Origin: Pseudomonadota bacterium
GTDB taxonomy: Bacteria > Pseudomonadota > Alphaproteobacteria > UBA8366
DNA length: 64,000 bases
Direction of reading: 5' to 3'
Assembly: GCA_036339585.1 (NCBI GenBank)
Contig: JAYZAS010000011.1
Location: 1 to 64,000 of the forward strand
The notes below the pieces were generated by a model that was not told the DNA's origin, made no database searches, and was given only the letters and a program-made list of their open reading frames with translations. Positions 41,538 to 50,163 of this stretch are shown here, piece after piece (positions within the stretch are counted from its first letter, which is position 1; each line of letters starts with the position of its first letter). The position numbers and the translations under genes are program-made.

Positions 41538-42503
41538 ATGAGACTGATAGTAAAAGTTTACCTTGTATCGCTTATTATTTTTTCTGCCGCATTTACCAGC
41601 GGCTCTGTTAATGCGTTTCCTGAAAAACCGGTTAGGTTGACTGTTGGGTTTGGTCCGGGTGGGCCATCTGGAATTGCAGCGCGGTTTATGCAGAAAAGGT
41701 TCACTGCGGTCACTGGTCAGGAGTTAATCATTATTAACAAGCCTGGTGCTGGAGGTGCGAAAGCGTGGTCGCAGATCAAAAAAGATAAGAAAGATGGATA
41801 TGAGCTAACATTGCTGAACTTCCCGCACACCGTTCTACAGCCTATTGCGCGCGGTAAAAATGCTGGTTACTCATATGAAGATATTCAGCCTGTTCTTTAC
41901 TACACTTCCGTCCCGCAAGTATTAGCGGTACGAAAAGATAGCCCAATTAAAACATTCAAGGATTTGGTGACTGCTATAAAGGCCAAGCCTGGTTCAGTGA
42001 CAATCGGTGGAACAGGAATTGGTGGCTCCAATCACTCTGCATTCTATAAATTCAACAAGGTTGGAGGGTTTAAGGCAGCCTATGTGCCGTTCAAAGATAC
42101 TTCGTCTACGATCGCTGGATTAAAGAGTGGCTCTACCGATGCTGCGTGGACATTTACTACTCAGGGTGTGAAAGACGGTGACTCTATAAGGATGTTGGCT
42201 ATTGCCTCAGAAAAAAGAATGTCGTTATTCCCCGAACTGCCAACGTTGACAGAGCTTGGGTACCCCGTAGTTGATGTGGCTTATTGGTCTATTGGAGTTC
42301 CTCCTGGAACTCCGTCTAACATTCGGCAGAAGGTTTCCGATGCCTTCCAAAAAGTAGTGAATGACGCCTCGGTTAAGGCCGATATGAGTAAAGGTGGTTA
42401 TCAACCCATATTAATTCCATACCCCAAAAGCAACGAATTCAAAGCTCGGTTGGGTAAAGATTATGGCGCTGTAGGTAAAGCGCTCTCAAAGAAGAAAAAG
42501 TAA
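41538..42503 (+). CDS. tctC: TTT transporter solute-binding protein (Bug/TctC family)
   Basis: The 321-residue protein has a signal peptide (VYLVSLIIFSAAFTSGSVNA) and the Bug fold pattern: PEKPVRLTVGFGPGGPSG at the mature start, NKPGAGG near residue 70, and GTPSNIRQKVSDAF near the end. It captures a carboxylic acid or related solute in the periplasm and delivers it to the TctA/TctB membrane complex encoded next. A GAGGAAGAAG ribosome-binding site precedes ATG 41538. Position 1 of tctCAB. Confidence 0.93.
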   Translation: MRLIVKVYLVSLIIFSAAFTSGSVNAFPEKPVRLTVGFGPGGPSGIAARFMQKRFTAVTGQELIIINKPGAGGAKAWSQIKKDKKDGYELTLLNFPHTVLQPIARGKNAGYSYEDIQPVLYYTSVPQVLAVRKDSPIKTFKDLVTAIKAKPGSVTIGGTGIGGSNHSAFYKFNKVGGFKAAYVPFKDTSSTIAGLKSGSTDAAWTFTTQGVKDGDSIRMLAIASEKRMSLFPELPTLTELGYPVVDVAYWSIGVPPGTPSNIRQKVSDAFQKVVNDASVKADMSKGGYQPILIPYPKSNEFKARLGKDYGAVGKALSKKKK

Positions 42504-42550
42504 GGGCATTGTGGGGTAGTTTTGCGCCATGAGCGTGAGCCTACCCCAAC

Positions 42551-44077
42551 ATGTGTACAATGGAATTTCTACAGCATATCTCGGCCTCTTTTTCTCCTTA
42601 CATTTTAGCAGTAGGCACTTGCGGCCTTTTTTTAGGCATATTGTTGGGAGCACTGCCAGGGTTAAGTTCAACATTTTCTTGTGCCGTGATGCTTCCTATT
42701 TCATTCTCGATGGATCCTGTGCCGGGGCTAATTTTTCTTGGCACCGTCTACATGGGGTCTACCTACGGGGGCTCATTCTCGGCAATTCTAATTAAAACTC
42801 CGGGCACGCCACAATCTATCACCACTACATTTGATGGGTTTCCAATGGCGAAACGAGGTGAGGGAGGGTTGGCCCTATCGATAGCGTGCATGGCATCGGT
42901 GATTGGAGGGTTGACGGGAATATTTGTTTTTTTATGGCTAGCTCCTCCACTTGCTAAGTTTGCGTTAATGTTCGGCCCAGCAGAGTATTTCTGGCTTGCA
43001 CTGTTTGGCCTTACCATTATCGCCTCTCTAAGTGAAGGTAACCTAATCAAAGGCCTCATCAGTGGTTTTTTTGGCTTGGCATTGTCCCAAATTGGTGTCT
43101 CGGTGGTTAGCGGTGACATGCGGTTCACATACGAAAATCCCGCTTTAATTGGTGGGATCCCTATCATTCCTGCTACGATCGGGCTGCTATGTCTCCCGGT
43201 AGCGATAGATTTAATAGCTGATCCAGATCACCACCTTAGTACACCGCTAACTGAGCGGAGAAATAATTTTTTAAGAGCCGCTAGGGCAATCTGGGACCGA
43301 AAGCGAAATGCTATTCAGAGTTCACTCATAGGTACATTAATCGGAATCATTCCAGCAGCTGGGGGAGCAATAGCCAGTTTAGTTGCGTATGCTGAGGCAA
43401 GCCGGACCGCCAAAAAAAGCGACAGGTTTGGAGATGGTGATCCCGGGGGAATAATAGCTTCGGAATCGGCTAATAATGCTACGGTTGGAAGCGGTCTAAT
43501 ACCAACTTTTGTACTCGGAATTCCCGGCACTCCTCCCGACGCCGTTATTTTGGGAGCGATGATGGTTCATGGGGTGCAGATTGGACCAAAACTCTTCACT
43601 GAGCATAATGACATTGTATTGACGTTTCTGTCGGGTATGACCATAGCAACCGTGCTTATGCTGCCAGTCGGTTTATTCTTGGGGCGTTTTATCTACTCAG
43701 CGGTTACCAAGATGCCAAAATCATACTTGGTGCCGATGGTAGCCCTTATGCTGGTTATTGGATCCTTCGCCATCCAAAATAACTATCACGATATAGTGAT
43801 TATGCTTGTTTTAGGAATTGTTGCTTGGATCATCAGTCGTTTTGGATTTCCAGCGCCACCCATCGTGTTAGGGCTCCTGTTGGGTCCTATAGCGGAACAG
43901 GGTTTTGCCCAAGCTCTAATGATTGGTCGTGCCAAAGACTCAGTGTTGGAGACCTTTTTTGCAAGGCCAATATCAGTTGCTTTAATTGGCTGCATTTTAG
44001 CTGCCATCATATTACCGCCGCTTTTGCGGCGCTCCTCTTTCAACAGGTTAAGGATGAAAGAAAATGTTTCAACTTAA
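42551..44077 (+). CDS. tctA: TTT transporter large permease (TctA family)
   Basis: The 508-residue membrane protein has about 11-12 hydrophobic segments and TctA signatures: GILLGALPGLSSTFSCAV near residue 30, GSTYGGSFSAILIKTPGTP near 70, and FVLGIPGTPPDAVILGAM near 320. It forms the proton- or sodium-coupled channel. Start at 42551 or the ATG nine bases on. It follows tctC by 47 bp and overlaps tctB by 14 bp. Confidence 0.94.
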   Translation: MCTMEFLQHISASFSPYILAVGTCGLFLGILLGALPGLSSTFSCAVMLPISFSMDPVPGLIFLGTVYMGSTYGGSFSAILIKTPGTPQSITTTFDGFPMAKRGEGGLALSIACMASVIGGLTGIFVFLWLAPPLAKFALMFGPAEYFWLALFGLTIIASLSEGNLIKGLISGFFGLALSQIGVSVVSGDMRFTYENPALIGGIPIIPATIGLLCLPVAIDLIADPDHHLSTPLTERRNNFLRAARAIWDRKRNAIQSSLIGTLIGIIPAAGGAIASLVAYAEASRTAKKSDRFGDGDPGGIIASESANNATVGSGLIPTFVLGIPGTPPDAVILGAMMVHGVQIGPKLFTEHNDIVLTFLSGMTIATVLMLPVGLFLGRFIYSAVTKMPKSYLVPMVALMLVIGSFAIQNNYHDIVIMLVLGIVAWIISRFGFPAPPIVLGLLLGPIAEQGFAQALMIGRAKDSVLETFFARPISVALIGCILAAIILPPLLRRSSFNRLRMKENVST

Positions 44078-44549
44078 AATGAATATTAATGGCAATAACA
44101 ATAGGGCCAGGAATATACTGGGAAGTCTAACATTCGGCATGCTCGGTATTTTTATGTTTTATGCATCGCAGGATTTTGAAAGTGCTGGACGGGTTACTCC
44201 TGCATTTATTGGTTGTGGATTAATAGTCTTGTCAGTTCTTTTGGTCCTTGTAGAATTTTGTAAAAGTGAGTTATTACCCCCTCCAACTGCTATCACAGGC
44301 TCTTTAGTTCGTCGTAGTTTGTTCATAGCGTTAATGGTTATCTGGGTTGTGGCTCTGCCATATCTTGGTTTTGTAGTGGCAGGGTGTCTCGCGTTCGCTA
44401 TAATTTCAGCGGCAGTTCCCAAAAATTCCCACAAAACATCGGCTTCTGTTGCTATAAACACTGTTGCCGGCATCGTAACCACTATCGGGTTCTGGGTCGT
44501 GCTTACGGTTTTTTTAAAAGTCCCGCTGCCTGAGGCAACTTTTTTTTGA
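44064..44549 (+). CDS. tctB: TTT transporter small permease (TctB family)
   Basis: The 161-residue protein has four membrane segments, the expected size and topology of TctB. The frame overlaps the end of tctA by 14 bp and has AAGGATGAAAG upstream; a later ATG at 44079 just after the tctA stop is an alternative. It completes the tripartite transporter. Confidence 0.85.
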   Translation: MFQLKMNINGNNNRARNILGSLTFGMLGIFMFYASQDFESAGRVTPAFIGCGLIVLSVLLVLVEFCKSELLPPPTAITGSLVRRSLFIALMVIWVVALPYLGFVVAGCLAFAIISAAVPKNSHKTSASVAINTVAGIVTTIGFWVVLTVFLKVPLPEATFF

Positions 44550-44587
44550 GTAATTTTGGAACTTTCAATAAGCTAGGCTAGACAACG

Positions 44588-44977
44588 ATGCTAGAACTTC
44601 AACACATAGTCTCCTCCCAAGGCCCAAAGCGTGTTGGTCCCTTCAGTCATGCTGTCCGAGCAGGCGATTTTTTATTTGTAACCGGACAAATGCCTACACT
44701 GCCAGAGGACCCAAATACGTTGGTTTCTGGTGGTATAGAAGAGCAAACAAAAAGAGTTATGGATAACCTCAAACTTGTTCTTAGCAGCCAAAGCCTAGGT
44801 TTCGACAGGATAGCTTTTGCGCGAGTTTATCTAGTAAACTTCCAAGACTTTGACCGCATGAACAAAGTCTACCAGAGCTTTTTTCCTAAAGACCGACTGC
44901 CCTCCCGCACTTGCATTGGCGTTACAGGACTGGCAGTTGGGGCTTTGGTTGAGATTGATTTTGTTGTGGCTTGTTGA
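44588..44977 (+). CDS. RidA (YjgF/UK114) family protein
   Basis: The 129-residue protein has the RidA signatures GPFSHAVRAGDFLFVTGQ near the N-terminus, EEQTKRVMDNLKLVL in the middle, and the C-terminal PSRTCIGVTGLAVGALVEID with the conserved Arg that contacts imine/enamine substrates. RidA proteins deaminate reactive enamines formed by PLP enzymes or act in catabolic operons. It lies 38 bp after tctB and 59 bp before a GGT-like gene, which suggests catabolism of an imported nitrogen compound. Confidence 0.92.
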   Translation: MLELQHIVSSQGPKRVGPFSHAVRAGDFLFVTGQMPTLPEDPNTLVSGGIEEQTKRVMDNLKLVLSSQSLGFDRIAFARVYLVNFQDFDRMNKVYQSFFPKDRLPSRTCIGVTGLAVGALVEIDFVVAC

Positions 44978-45036
44978 ACACAATAACAATCCTGTTGTGA
45001 TTAGTTGATATTGTAAGCACTCTTGATAGGAACGGC

Positions 45037-46623
45037 ATGATTGAAACAATGAGGTCTTCTCGTGGCGCAGTAAGTGCACCACATCATTTGGCTGCTGAGG
45101 CGGGGCTGAGGGTGCTCCGTGAGGGTGGAAATGCAATAGAGGCCATGGTGGCGACCGCAGCTACCATAGCTGTTGTGTATCCTCACATGAACGCCTTAGG
45201 CGGAGACAATTTTTGGTTGATTCATAAATCGGGCAGAATTTTTGGAATAGATGCTTGTGGGCGGGCCGCCAAAAAAATCACTAGAGAATTTTATTTGAGC
45301 CGCGGTTTCAGTTCTATTCCATCTCGAGGGGCACTCTCTGCTTTGACAGTGGCGGGTGCTCCAAGTGGCTGGGAATTAGCTTTACAGATAAGCGCGAAGT
45401 TTGGTGGCTCGCTGCCATTGGACCGTCTTTTGGAAGACGCTATATACTACGCTGGTGTGGGTGTTCCTGTCACACGATCACTTCAAAAAAATGTCGTGAA
45501 TAAGTCAAATGAATTAGCTGATATCCCTGGGTTCTCTGAAACGTTTTTACCCGACGGAAAACCACCAATTGTTGGTGAGCGGTTTGTTTTGCCAGCATTG
45601 GCAGAAACGTTGATGCAAATCGGTGAACGAGGAATATCAGATTTTTACGAGGGAGAACTAAGCAGAAAGATCATCTCCGACCTGGCTAAGGTTGGCAGCC
45701 CATTAAGTTTGGAGGATATGGAAAAGCATAAGGCGCGGATGACTGAACCGCTGCAGGCAGCAACCAGCTCTGGCACACTCTACAATATGCCGCCGCCAAC
45801 TCAAGGTATTGCCTCACTGATAATTCTCTCATTATTTGATATACTTAAAAGGCCTGAGGCGGAAACCGCAGACTACATTCATGCTATAATAGAGGCTACA
45901 AAAGCTGCGTTTAATATCCGGGATAAGTATGTGGCCGATCCAGACTCCATGAATGTCTTGGTCAGTAAGTTCCTTAGTCACGACTCATTAACCCAGTTGG
46001 CATCCGGTATTGATTTCAGTCATGCAAAACCTTGGAACACCCCAGTCGATAGTGGTGATACGGTTTGGATGGGTGCTGCAGACTCAGATGGTTGTGTTGT
46101 AAGCTGTATACAAAGTGTTTATTGGGAGTTTGGAAGCGGTCTTGTTCTCCCTGAGACAGGAATTGTGTGGCAGAACCGTGGCATAGGATTCTCACTTAAT
46201 CAAAATCACCATAACAGGCTTGAACCAATGCGCCAACCGTTCCACACAATTCAACCCGCGCTTGCTAATCTGCACGACGGCAGGGTCATGGCTTATGGCA
46301 CTATGGGGGGTGAGGGACAACCACAGACGCAAGCTGCTATATTCAGTCGTTACGTTACCTATAAGCAGGATTTGCAAACAGCGATAAATTCACCGCGATG
46401 GTTGCTAGGTAGAACATGGGGTGATGATACCAGTAAATTACGGCTTGAGAGTCGTTTTACAGCTGACGTGACCAACGACTTAGCCCAACGTGGTCATGAA
46501 CTAGAAATGGTTGGTGATTTTGACGACATTATGGGACACGCAGGTGCCGTGGTGTTACGACCTGACGGGATTTTCGAGGCGGCAAGTGATCCTCGAAGCG
46601 ATGGGGCCGCTTTAGGGTTTTGA
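45037..46623 (+). CDS. Gamma-glutamyltransferase-like Ntn hydrolase (YwrD-type)
   Basis: The 528-residue protein is a second GGT-superfamily member. It has the N-terminal RVLREGGNAIEAMVATAAT motif and MNALGGDNF, nucleophile Thr in SGDTVWMGAADSDG (~341), and GTMGGEGQPQTQ near the C-terminus. There is no signal peptide, as in cytoplasmic YwrD-type enzymes. It comes after the TTT transporter and RidA genes on the same strand and may act on the solute they bring in. It is clearly different in sequence from the member at 26.5 kb, so this is not a recent duplication. Confidence 0.88.
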   Translation: MIETMRSSRGAVSAPHHLAAEAGLRVLREGGNAIEAMVATAATIAVVYPHMNALGGDNFWLIHKSGRIFGIDACGRAAKKITREFYLSRGFSSIPSRGALSALTVAGAPSGWELALQISAKFGGSLPLDRLLEDAIYYAGVGVPVTRSLQKNVVNKSNELADIPGFSETFLPDGKPPIVGERFVLPALAETLMQIGERGISDFYEGELSRKIISDLAKVGSPLSLEDMEKHKARMTEPLQAATSSGTLYNMPPPTQGIASLIILSLFDILKRPEAETADYIHAIIEATKAAFNIRDKYVADPDSMNVLVSKFLSHDSLTQLASGIDFSHAKPWNTPVDSGDTVWMGAADSDGCVVSCIQSVYWEFGSGLVLPETGIVWQNRGIGFSLNQNHHNRLEPMRQPFHTIQPALANLHDGRVMAYGTMGGEGQPQTQAAIFSRYVTYKQDLQTAINSPRWLLGRTWGDDTSKLRLESRFTADVTNDLAQRGHELEMVGDFDDIMGHAGAVVLRPDGIFEAASDPRSDGAALGF

Positions 46624-47100: not shown

Positions 47101-47715
47101 TCAAATTACCGCAGTAAAGTTTAAAGTAATTTTTCTTTCATCTAATGTATGCAATAAGTCTCTGTGTCTAAAGTTACTATTAAAAATGATTAGTTGACCC
47201 TCATTAGTATCATAAGCAATGTTTTCCATGTTGTATTCATTATCCTCTATTACTGGAACAGAAATCATTTTTTCGGCAGCAGGTGAGTCAAAAACAATTT
47301 TCGCGGAACCTTTTGGAGCTTTTAGAATATAGATCCCAGAAAAAAGACTATTAGGATTTATATGAACGTCAGTAGAGCAGTTTTTTTCGAATATATTTAT
47401 CCACATGTTCTTAATAAATACATTATTATTTGGTAAGTGTACTCCAATATACTTCGCGAATTCTATCAATTCACATGCAATTATTTGGCTCAAATCCAGA
47501 AATTCTGGTTGCATGTGCAACTCGTTATTATTCTCTATTGTGGTATATAATGAGCATGCCCAATCACTCGGGCGACTGTTTGGCGTACTGCTGCGAATAA
47601 AATCAACGGCCGGCAGTAAACTTTTTTTTATGTCATCATGATCGGGAATATTCGAGATCTGCACAGGACAGGGAAATAGCTCTAAGTATCTAGTGTGGGG
47701 TGTTACGTCTGTCAT
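47101..47715 (-). CDS. 2OG-Fe(II) oxygenase-like protein A (PF13759 type)
   Basis: ATG 47715 gives 204 residues and is preceded by GAGG five bases upstream; it lies 7 nt after the stop of gene B. The protein matches the putative 2OG-Fe(II) oxygenase group PF13759/TIGR02466. The iron-binding segment reads DVHINPNSLFSG, where paralogues have H-x-H, so one likely ligand is Asn. The distal His is in NSNFRHRDLL and the 2OG-binding Arg in DERKITLNF. It is most like paralogue C (48489-49097). The family is presumed to hydroxylate a peptide or small molecule; no substrate is known. Confidence 0.82.
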   Translation of the reverse strand: MTDVTPHTRYLELFPCPVQISNIPDHDDIKKSLLPAVDFIRSSTPNSRPSDWACSLYTTIENNNELHMQPEFLDLSQIIACELIEFAKYIGVHLPNNNVFIKNMWINIFEKNCSTDVHINPNSLFSGIYILKAPKGSAKIVFDSPAAEKMISVPVIEDNEYNMENIAYDTNEGQLIIFNSNFRHRDLLHTLDERKITLNFTAVI

Positions 47716-47722
47716 TGTGGCC

Positions 47723-48367
47723 TCACATAGTTGCGTTAAAAGACACACTTATGCGTTCACCCTCTGAGGCATTTACTTGAACCGAGTGCCGTAAACTGCT
47801 GTCAAAAATTACCAAATCACCGGGTTGAGGTGAATATGATGCAACTACATTGTTATAGGGAGTATCTCTCTCAATAGGCGGCCTGATCATGGTATCAGCC
47901 TGGTAAGAGTGGAAAAGGATCTTAGAACAGTTTGGCGGTGCCTTTACATAATAAACGCCAGTCATGATGTGATTGGCATGATTGTGAATCTCCTGACTCA
48001 TACCGTGCTGATATATGTTTACCCAACATTGAGTAATTCGCAGATTATTTTCAGCTAATGGATAAGCCATTGTTTCTCCAAATTTTTTAAGGCCTTCCAT
48101 TAGAAAATCAGCAAATTCCCGAAATGCGGGACGTTCATGAAGATTACAATTATTTGATATTGTTGTGTAGACATCACAAGCCCAAGAGGTGGGTTTGCCA
48201 TTTGGTGTCTCTGCCCGGATCTGATCCAGCTCTTGTATCATAGCGTCACAAAGTCTGTTTGAATTAGGTGCGCGGGTCAATTGGATAGGAACCTTAAACA
48301 AATCTTCCACAATGCGCTCGATTTTAATAGGAGACGCTGGTTTACTGTTATTAGGAGTAAGCGGCAT
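47723..48367 (-). CDS. 2OG-Fe(II) oxygenase-like protein B (PF13759 type)
   Basis: The 214-residue protein has FKVPIQLTRAP at the start, the iron-site segment GMSQEIHNHANHIMTGVYY, the distal GDLVIFDSSLRHS and GERISVSFN with the 2OG-contacting Arg. It is closest to paralogue D (49105-49716), sharing GMSQEIHxHxNxIMTGVYY and the FHSxxADxMIRP segment. It is the first gene of the B-A pair; gene A follows after 7 nt. Confidence 0.85.
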   Translation of the reverse strand: MPLTPNNSKPASPIKIERIVEDLFKVPIQLTRAPNSNRLCDAMIQELDQIRAETPNGKPTSWACDVYTTISNNCNLHERPAFREFADFLMEGLKKFGETMAYPLAENNLRITQCWVNIYQHGMSQEIHNHANHIMTGVYYVKAPPNCSKILFHSYQADTMIRPPIERDTPYNNVVASYSPQPGDLVIFDSSLRHSVQVNASEGERISVSFNATM

Positions 48368-48488
48368 GCCTGGCCTTTCATAAGTTACCCATCATTAAGT
48401 GTAATATTTCTACGCAATAGAGGCCAGTTAGTAAAATGTCGCTATTACTGGGAGGAAATTTTCAATGTCTAAGGGATCAATATTAAAA

Positions 48489-49097
48489 TTACAGAGCGCA
48501 TGTGAAGCCTATTGAAATTCTCTCTTCATCGACATTGTGAAGCAGAACACGATGTTTCAGGTGGCTATTAAAAATTATTAAATCACCTTCACTCATTTTA
48601 AAACCAGCCTGGCGCATATTGTATTGATTACTTACCTTTATCGGGGGGGTTATCATTTGTTCAGATGAAGGAGAGTCAAATGCAAGTAAACCGGAATTAT
48701 ATGGTACTTTTATGAAGTAAACGCCAGTAAATAATGAGTTTGGATGGCAGTGTTGATCCATAGAGTCTTTATTTTTTAATATATTTATCCACATATTATT
48801 TATAGATAATCTACCGTTATTTTTATCTATACAAAGTTTACTTGCAAAAACCTCAATTTCCTCAGTGATAAAGTCAGCTAGTTCGCGAAAGCTCGGTTCG
48901 TCCATTAGTTGGTTTTTATTGCGCGCAGTTGTGTAAAGGTTGCCCGCCCAATGGCGAGGTTTGCTGTTTGGTGTTGTCCGACAAATCTCATTGATAGCTG
49001 CCAACAATGTAGAGTTTAATTTTTTAAAATTGGACGGCTTAGAGATTTGGATGGTTTGCGGAAAATATTCCAATATTGTCGATGGTAATTCGTACAT
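48489..49097 (-). CDS. 2OG-Fe(II) oxygenase-like protein C (PF13759 type)
   Basis: Start ATG 49097 gives 202 residues and leaves a 7-nt gap after gene D, the same spacing as in the B-A pair; an ATG 21 bases upstream would overlap D by 14 nt. The iron site reads MDQHCHPNSLFTGVYF, distal His in NSHLKHRVLL, Arg in EERISIGF. FDSPSSEQMI and NQYNM link it to paralogue A. It is the second gene of the D-C pair, and 121 bp separate it from gene B. Confidence 0.83.
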   Translation of the reverse strand: MYELPSTILEYFPQTIQISKPSNFKKLNSTLLAAINEICRTTPNSKPRHWAGNLYTTARNKNQLMDEPSFRELADFITEEIEVFASKLCIDKNNGRLSINNMWINILKNKDSMDQHCHPNSLFTGVYFIKVPYNSGLLAFDSPSSEQMITPPIKVSNQYNMRQAGFKMSEGDLIIFNSHLKHRVLLHNVDEERISIGFTCAL

Positions 49098-49104
49098 TTT
49101 TCTG

Positions 49105-49716
49105 TCAGAACCGCGCATTAAACGAAAGGCTAATGCGCTCTCCTTCTATGTCGTTCGTCGGAACTGAGTGACGCAGCGAACTATCAAAGAAAATGAGGTC
49201 ACCAGGCTTTGGGTGCAGGGATGCTATCGGGTTGTTGAGTGCGTTTTCCTCGTAAACAGCAGGACGTATCATTACATCAGCAAAGTGCGAATGAAATAAA
49301 ATCTCTGAACAATTGGCCGGCGCCTTGAGGTAATAAACACCGGTCATGATATTGTTGGGGTGATGGTGTATTTCTTGGCTCATACCAAAGTTGTAGATAT
49401 TCACCCAGCATTGCGTGATTTCAAGACTTTCGATGGTAAAATCATATCCCATCGCGTGACCAAATTGCATAAATCCCTGGCGCATCAATAGATCGAAATC
49501 ATGAAATCCAGGGCGCTCATGAAGCCTGTTGTTGTTAGTCAGCGTTGTGTAAACATCACATGCCCAACTATCCGGCTTGCCATTCGGTGTGGTCATGCTT
49601 ACTTGCTTAATCTCGGCGACAAGTTTCTCATTAAGTGTTGCCGCATTCGGAACTTTGATTAGCATAACTGGAACAGGAAATAGCTTTTGGTAATCACGGG
49701 CTGGAACTTTGGACAC
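49105..49716 (-). CDS. 2OG-Fe(II) oxygenase-like protein D (PF13759 type)
   Basis: The 203-residue protein has a GTG start with AGGAAG upstream. Motifs: LFPVPVMLIKVPN, GMSQEIHHHPNNIMTGVYY, GDLIFFDSSLRHS and GERISLSFN. All expected ligands (H-x-H, distal His, Arg) are present. It is first in the four-gene run and is closest to paralogue B. The upstream gene (ArsC/Spx-like) is divergent, so the promoter for the run should be in 49717-49806. Confidence 0.85.
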   Translation of the reverse strand: MSKVPARDYQKLFPVPVMLIKVPNAATLNEKLVAEIKQVSMTTPNGKPDSWACDVYTTLTNNNRLHERPGFHDFDLLMRQGFMQFGHAMGYDFTIESLEITQCWVNIYNFGMSQEIHHHPNNIMTGVYYLKAPANCSEILFHSHFADVMIRPAVYEENALNNPIASLHPKPGDLIFFDSSLRHSVPTNDIEGERISLSFNARF

Positions 49717-49806: not shown

Positions 49807-50163
49807 ATGATTCATATATATGGTCTGAAAAATTGTGACTCTTGTCGGAAAGCCATAAACTGGTTGTCCACTGAGAGTATACCTCTGAAGTTTCACGATT
49901 TTCGTACTCAGGGACTTGACCCTAAAAAACTAGATAGATGGTTGATTCAAACAGATTGGAATGTATTGCTTAATCGGCGCAGCATGACTTGGCGTAAGAT
50001 TCAAGACATAAAAAAACAGGACCTCAATAAAGCGCGTGCAAGAGATTTGATGCTTGCGCACTTTAAATTAATTAAAAGGCCGGTCTTTGAGATACAAAAG
50101 AAAGTTCTGATTGGAGCCACAGTGGATATATTTAATATGATAAAGAAACTAAACAGAGGATAG
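49807..50163 (+). CDS. ArsC/Spx-family thioredoxin-fold protein
   Basis: ATG 49807 with GAGGAGG just upstream gives 118 residues; a longer open frame to the left lacks this support and overlaps the divergent gene. The N-terminal IYGLKNCDSCRKAINWL carries C10-x-x-C13, the ArsC/Spx position, and IKRPVFEIQKKVLIGA is the conserved C-terminal strand of the YffB/ArsC group. It may be a glutathione-dependent reductase like YffB or a regulator like Spx; the CxxC pair resembles Spx, but alphaproteobacterial members are usually annotated as ArsC-like. Confidence 0.85.
   Translation: MIHIYGLKNCDSCRKAINWLSTESIPLKFHDFRTQGLDPKKLDRWLIQTDWNVLLNRRSMTWRKIQDIKKQDLNKARARDLMLAHFKLIKRPVFEIQKKVLIGATVDIFNMIKKLNRG

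Follow-up and report, generated by a model that had tools for sequence, protein, structure and literature searches.

Four adjacent genes of family PF13759, found in a 64,000-nucleotide stretch of DNA (the window), form two bicistrons, D-C and B-A, and each of these likely encodes one heteromeric Fe(II)/2OG oxygenase made of a catalytic and an auxiliary subunit, the latter having repeatedly turned into a pseudoenzyme. The heteromer would probably be a heterodimer. We arrive at this two-subunit reading from the strict pairing of the two genes, their joint duplication, their joint loss, and a decay of predicted catalytic residues that affects only one member.

Two related bicistrons at one locus

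The genes are open reading frames on the minus strand in the order D-C-B-A, as the original prediction had it (Table 1). All four proteins score above the curated cut-offs of both PF13759 and TIGR02466, with A the weakest match (49.6 and 72.3 bits, respectively). The resemblance of D to B and of C to A, first noticed from shared motifs, is borne out by protein identities of 55-56% and 42%, respectively, against 31-33% in every cross-type comparison, and a likeness between the D-C and B-A units can still be detected at the DNA level (63-70% in three blocks). The motifs needed one correction, since A reads FDSPAAEKMI and not EQMI, one residue off. We refer to the upstream genes (D and B) as type 1, to the downstream genes (C and A) as type 2, and to D-C and B-A as pairs I and II.

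Table 1. Positions of the oxygenase genes, predicted ligand sites and flanking features in the window.
Feature	Position	Strand	Description
Gene D	49716-49105	minus	GTG start; upstream (type 1, predicted catalytic) member of pair I; PF13759; HxH...H...R intact
Gene C	49097-48489	minus	Downstream (type 2) member of pair I; predicted tetrad intact; signature FT, not FN
Spacer C/B between the two units	48368-48488	minus	121 nt; similar in three genomes (119-121 nt)
Gene B	48367-47723	minus	Upstream (type 1, predicted catalytic) member of pair II; predicted tetrad intact; modelled double-stranded beta-helix
B motif H128-N129-H130	47978-47986	minus	Predicted iron-ligand HxH
Gene A	47715-47101	minus	Downstream (type 2) member of pair II; predicted ligands altered, fold kept in the model
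A motif H118-I119-N120	47356-47364	minus	Same site degraded to HxN
A K195	47131-47133	minus	At the predicted 2OG-binding Arg position; Lys also in the two other genomes of the genus
ArsC-family neighbour	49807-50163	plus	Divergent from D; outside the oxygenase unit

The gaps of 7, 121 and 7 nt given originally are correct for the ATG starts of C and A. Both genes have further in-frame starts upstream, an ATG at 49118 that would make C overlap D by 14 nt and a GTG at 47748 that would make A overlap B by 26 nt, so the D/C and B/A gaps are exactly 7 nt only if the ATG starts are right. The other pairs described below have gaps of 4-28 nt or a small overlap, and 7 nt is therefore not a fixed property of the bicistron. 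A scan of the four-gene cluster for promoters and terminators gave no more matches than shuffled sequences did, with no clear promoter or terminator in the spacer between C and B.

The bicistrons in related genomes

We identified 17 complete upstream/downstream bicistrons, falling into five groups (I-V), in seven genomes from two related families of marine alphaproteobacteria; the relatives are metagenome assemblies from thinly sampled families, and the counts are not independent because the genomes are akin to one another. The source genome has 11 PF13759 matches, including a third pair on contig C12 (approximately 78.9-80.1 kb) and a single gene on contig C1. Pairs I and II occur together in three genomes of the source genus, pair III in four genomes, pair IV in three, and pair V in two genomes of the second family. 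Genomes with just one pair at this locus were found as well, a search that the original prediction had suggested: pair II stands alone at the same spot in two genomes of the sister genus (G005 C43 and G009 C36), where ArsC-family, SDR and aconitase-like genes mark the locus as orthologous.

Across all five groups, the downstream gene lies directly behind an upstream gene (17/17), in agreement with the original claim that both types are retained side by side. There are also ten related genes that occur singly, and none of them is of type 2 (0/10). Samples of 385 genomes of the class and 398 of the phylum yielded no match near pair level, matches outside the order staying below 130 bits as compared with 216-302 bits for members of the pairs. 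We also considered viral origin or carriage and rejected it: viral contigs were without any pair in peptide-pattern scans with B and C, and the cyanophage and pelagiphage proteins among the matches listed were at most 30% identical to B.

The neighbours of the pairs, most of them named by reading their translations, differ between groups and comprise the ArsC/SDR/aconitase-like set, an amino-acid-type ABC transporter, a decarboxylase-like gene and a hydantoinase-like gene. We therefore rejected the neighbourhood as a guide to the substrate, as no pathway emerges from it. In the window, positions 41538-46623 of the plus strand, convergent with the oxygenase genes, carry a gamma-glutamyltranspeptidase gene, checked by Pfam, along with a RidA-like gene and a putative tripartite tricarboxylate transporter set, both named by reading.

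Duplication of the pair as a unit

In a tree of all the upstream and downstream genes (17 of each) and the ten single genes, the downstream genes form one clade (support 96/94) and the upstream genes another, for which the support is only moderate (81/63). When the catalytic columns were masked, type 2 remained one group (88/93) and the type 1 genes of pair V were not separated from the single genes. Sub-groups I-V are mirrored on the two sides of the tree, and pairwise distances among upstream genes correlate with those among downstream genes (r 0.84, a value reached in 2 of 20,000 permutations). The recurrence of the five groups on both sides implies that the bicistron predates the divergence of the two families or has moved between them.

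These mirrored histories argue that the bicistron was duplicated whole on several occasions, which produced D-C and B-A at this locus and the third pair elsewhere in the source genome, and they uphold the original proposal of a unit duplication, as does the grouping of D with B and of C with A in every tree that we built. A duplication inside the source genus was not rejected by the AU test (p 0.38), and the tandem copy at this locus may have arisen either there or earlier than the divergence of the sister genus. Since the two types are both kept together and co-duplicated, the upstream and downstream proteins very probably act as a pair.

Predicted fold and catalytic residues

AlphaFold single-chain models of B and A (mean pLDDT 73.7 and 82.3), each built from only 12 sequences, are both double-stranded beta-helices. 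Their nearest PDB folds are 3bvc and 2rg4 (Z 20.8-21.2), solved proteins titled uncharacterized that share the PF13759/TIGR02466 family, the fold and the HxH...H...R set and differ in lying outside the paired clade. The nearest characterised folds are of the prolyl-4-hydroxylase/PHD2 type (4J25, 4IW3 and PHD2 entries; Z approximately 15-16), which differ from the proteins described here in sequence (7-16% identity) and in having HxD rather than HxH; their substrate is not transferable. HxD is the iron motif of PHD2, and most 2OG oxygenases have HxD/E where the PF13759 proteins that we compared have HxH. The family therefore probably has an iron site of three histidines.

The predicted tetrad of B consists of HxH (H128 and H130), H194 and R205, at the positions taken by HxD...H and the 2OG Arg in iron-binding 2OG oxygenases, an assignment made from motif position and fold and not from a metal-bound structure. 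This tetrad is intact in all type 1 proteins (17/17), in the outgroups, in the sequences of 3BVC and 2RG4, and in the single genes where readable, one site being masked by N and the G028 C472 gene being cut by the contig end. Type 2 proteins have the complete tetrad in 9/17 cases (C in three genomes, pair III, and pair II of the sister genus) and have lost at least one predicted ligand in 8/17, in three of the five groups (II in the source genus, IV and V). The difference between types (0/17 vs 8/17 broken) gives p 0.003 by Fisher's test, for sequences that are not independent of one another. A second mark, an Asn to Thr change six residues past the Arg, is present in every type 2 protein (17/17), the upstream, single and outgroup sequences compared all having Asn.

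The losses take different forms. The tetrad of A reads HNHK in the source genome and in G001, and HHHK in G002, where HxH persists; that of the type 2 protein is HDRQ or FDRL in pair IV and HNNH in pair V. That two separate assemblies show an identical change speaks against sequencing error. Parsimony on the tree without catalytic columns suggests at least two independent losses, of which one could be common to pairs IV and V. The broken type 2 proteins of pairs IV and V still score above the PF13759 cut-off in Pfam. The residues required of an active Fe(II)/2OG oxygenase are present in D, B and C and are not all present in A, which we do not file as an active oxygenase because it has HxN, and Lys in place of Arg. 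Judged by sequence A is likely a pseudoenzyme, one that appears from its model to retain the fold though its ligands are lost. The original description of four 2OG-Fe(II) oxygenases thus stands as to family membership and is doubtful for A.

These patterns bear on whether the bicistrons could simply co-transcribe two active oxygenases that act one after the other or each on its own substrate within a single pathway. Both members carry the full tetrad in pairs I and III and in the sister-genus pair II, both members are under purifying selection (see below), and the type 2 proteins with a full tetrad, C included, could be active. We nevertheless consider this explanation unlikely: the downstream proteins of pairs II (source genus), IV and V lack key ligands and are retained all the same, the Asn to Thr change in all downstream proteins affects a position that is otherwise invariant in the family sample, and the pairs share no common pathway gene nearby. 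The two-step hydroxylation by two different active enzymes that was proposed originally is disfavoured on the first of these grounds, A being among the broken proteins, though pairs I and III may have two active sites and carry out two-step or dual catalysis.

Selection and joint loss

Relative to G002, dN/dS is 0.07 for D, 0.13 for C and 0.10 for A. Type 2 genes range from 0.10 to 0.32 as against 0.05 to 0.20 for type 1 and, in the pairs compared, mostly lie above their own partners; none of the 17 downstream genes has a stop or frameshift. These ratios indicate that the downstream genes are still under purifying selection despite their ligand losses. In pairs I-III the G+C content of the downstream gene is 5-10 points below that of its upstream partner. 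At the pair III locus of G002 (L111:4483-4866), between genes that flank an intact pair III in the other two genomes, we found a type 1 remnant that ends just past HxH and no type 2 gene; type 1 has thus lost its end and type 2 has gone entirely, so that both members of pair III were lost together.

A downstream protein that keeps a modelled DSBH fold despite ligand loss and evolves faster than its partner might instead be a separate, non-oxygenase sensor of 2OG, a metal or a metabolite that regulates the enzyme or some other target. We regard this as quite improbable, because strict one-to-one pairing and co-duplication suit a subunit better than a general sensor and because the downstream protein has no extra domain. 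Least probable by our estimate is that the genes are ordinary tandem paralogues, together by chance and translational coupling, whose downstream copies are slowly decaying: adjacent homologues do arise by plain tandem duplication, PF13759 duplicates are adjacent elsewhere too (L018), and the downstream genes show relaxed constraint and, in pairs I-III, the lower G+C, but the low dN/dS in every type 2 gene compared, the uninterrupted reading frames, and an order and adjacency conserved over two families and five locus groups are hard to reconcile with such decay.

Other PF13759 bicistrons

Two genomes of a related genus, g13, contain a different PF13759 bicistron (L126:1846-3056 in G028 and L055:2223-3478 in G031) whose members overlap or nearly do so. 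Here it is the upstream protein that is broken, its first His being replaced by Arg or Lys and its distal His and Arg lost, and the downstream protein is intact; both members of the G031 pair score above the PF13759 cut-off. Given the reversed order and the different sub-family, this looks like a separate evolution of an enzyme/pseudoenzyme arrangement. The duplicates at L018 (304-3293, G002) are two long PF13759 proteins of approximately 500 aa in tandem with a 4-nt overlap.

A proposed two-subunit enzyme and comparison with known systems

In the two-subunit enzyme that we favor, the upstream protein (D or B) would be the catalytic subunit, its HxH...H...R set predicted to bind iron and 2OG. 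The downstream protein (C or A) would descend from a duplicate of an oxygenase presumably able, by analogy, to form pairs with itself, and would have become an auxiliary that supports or completes its partner's active site or substrate binding. Its own catalysis would then have been dispensable, allowing the ligands to decay in several lineages, and the bicistron would provide balanced co-synthesis of the two subunits.

A working principle of this kind is established in fungal talaromyolide biosynthesis, where TlxI lacks the 2OG-binding Arg and is auxiliary to TlxJ (PMC12141560; PDB 7VBQ); kcat/Km is 1.63 per min per uM for the TlxJ-TlxI heterodimer and 0.02 for TlxJ alone, an approximately 80-fold difference (PMC12141560). 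Like the bicistrons, the non-haem iron oxygenases TlxJ-TlxI and TlxA-TlxC each consist of two homologous 2OG-oxygenase proteins, which in Tlx form one enzyme, and one organism has two such pairs, as with D-C and B-A. A homologous subunit without catalytic residues is found in pairs II (source genus, so B-A), IV and V and not in pairs I (D-C) and III. The Tlx proteins differ in being fungal, in belonging to a natural-product cluster, and in having an established substrate and structure, whereas the bicistrons encode PF13759 proteins of approximately 205 aa in marine bacteria, are dispersed and outside any cluster, and are known here from genes and models. The likeness that we draw is one of working principle and common fold class, by analogy, and we claim no closer kinship.

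Members of PF13759/TIGR02466 are common in marine bacteria and cyanophages, and the full-text literature on them is very sparse; our searches of it found neither an assigned activity nor a description of a paired or degenerate sub-family. Our low-confidence guess, taken only from the likeness of the modelled fold to prolyl hydroxylases, is that a peptide, an amino acid or a similar small metabolite is hydroxylated. More broadly, and tentatively, as we would put its chances somewhat below even, PF13759 enzymes may generally be dimers that have more than once turned into obligate catalytic/pseudoenzyme heteromers in bacteria, in the form of self-contained, multiplying bicistrons with a substrate for each pair, and would then make up a class of heteromeric 2OG oxygenases that is bacterial and independent of gene clusters.

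Should the downstream protein prove to be a subunit that is required, assays of the single proteins could fail. The pairs also offer a graded series of decay, from the intact C through the partly broken A to the more fully broken proteins of pairs IV and V, in which the passage from enzyme to helper may be studied, with the sister genus and its intact single pair II at the orthologous locus representing the 'before' state.
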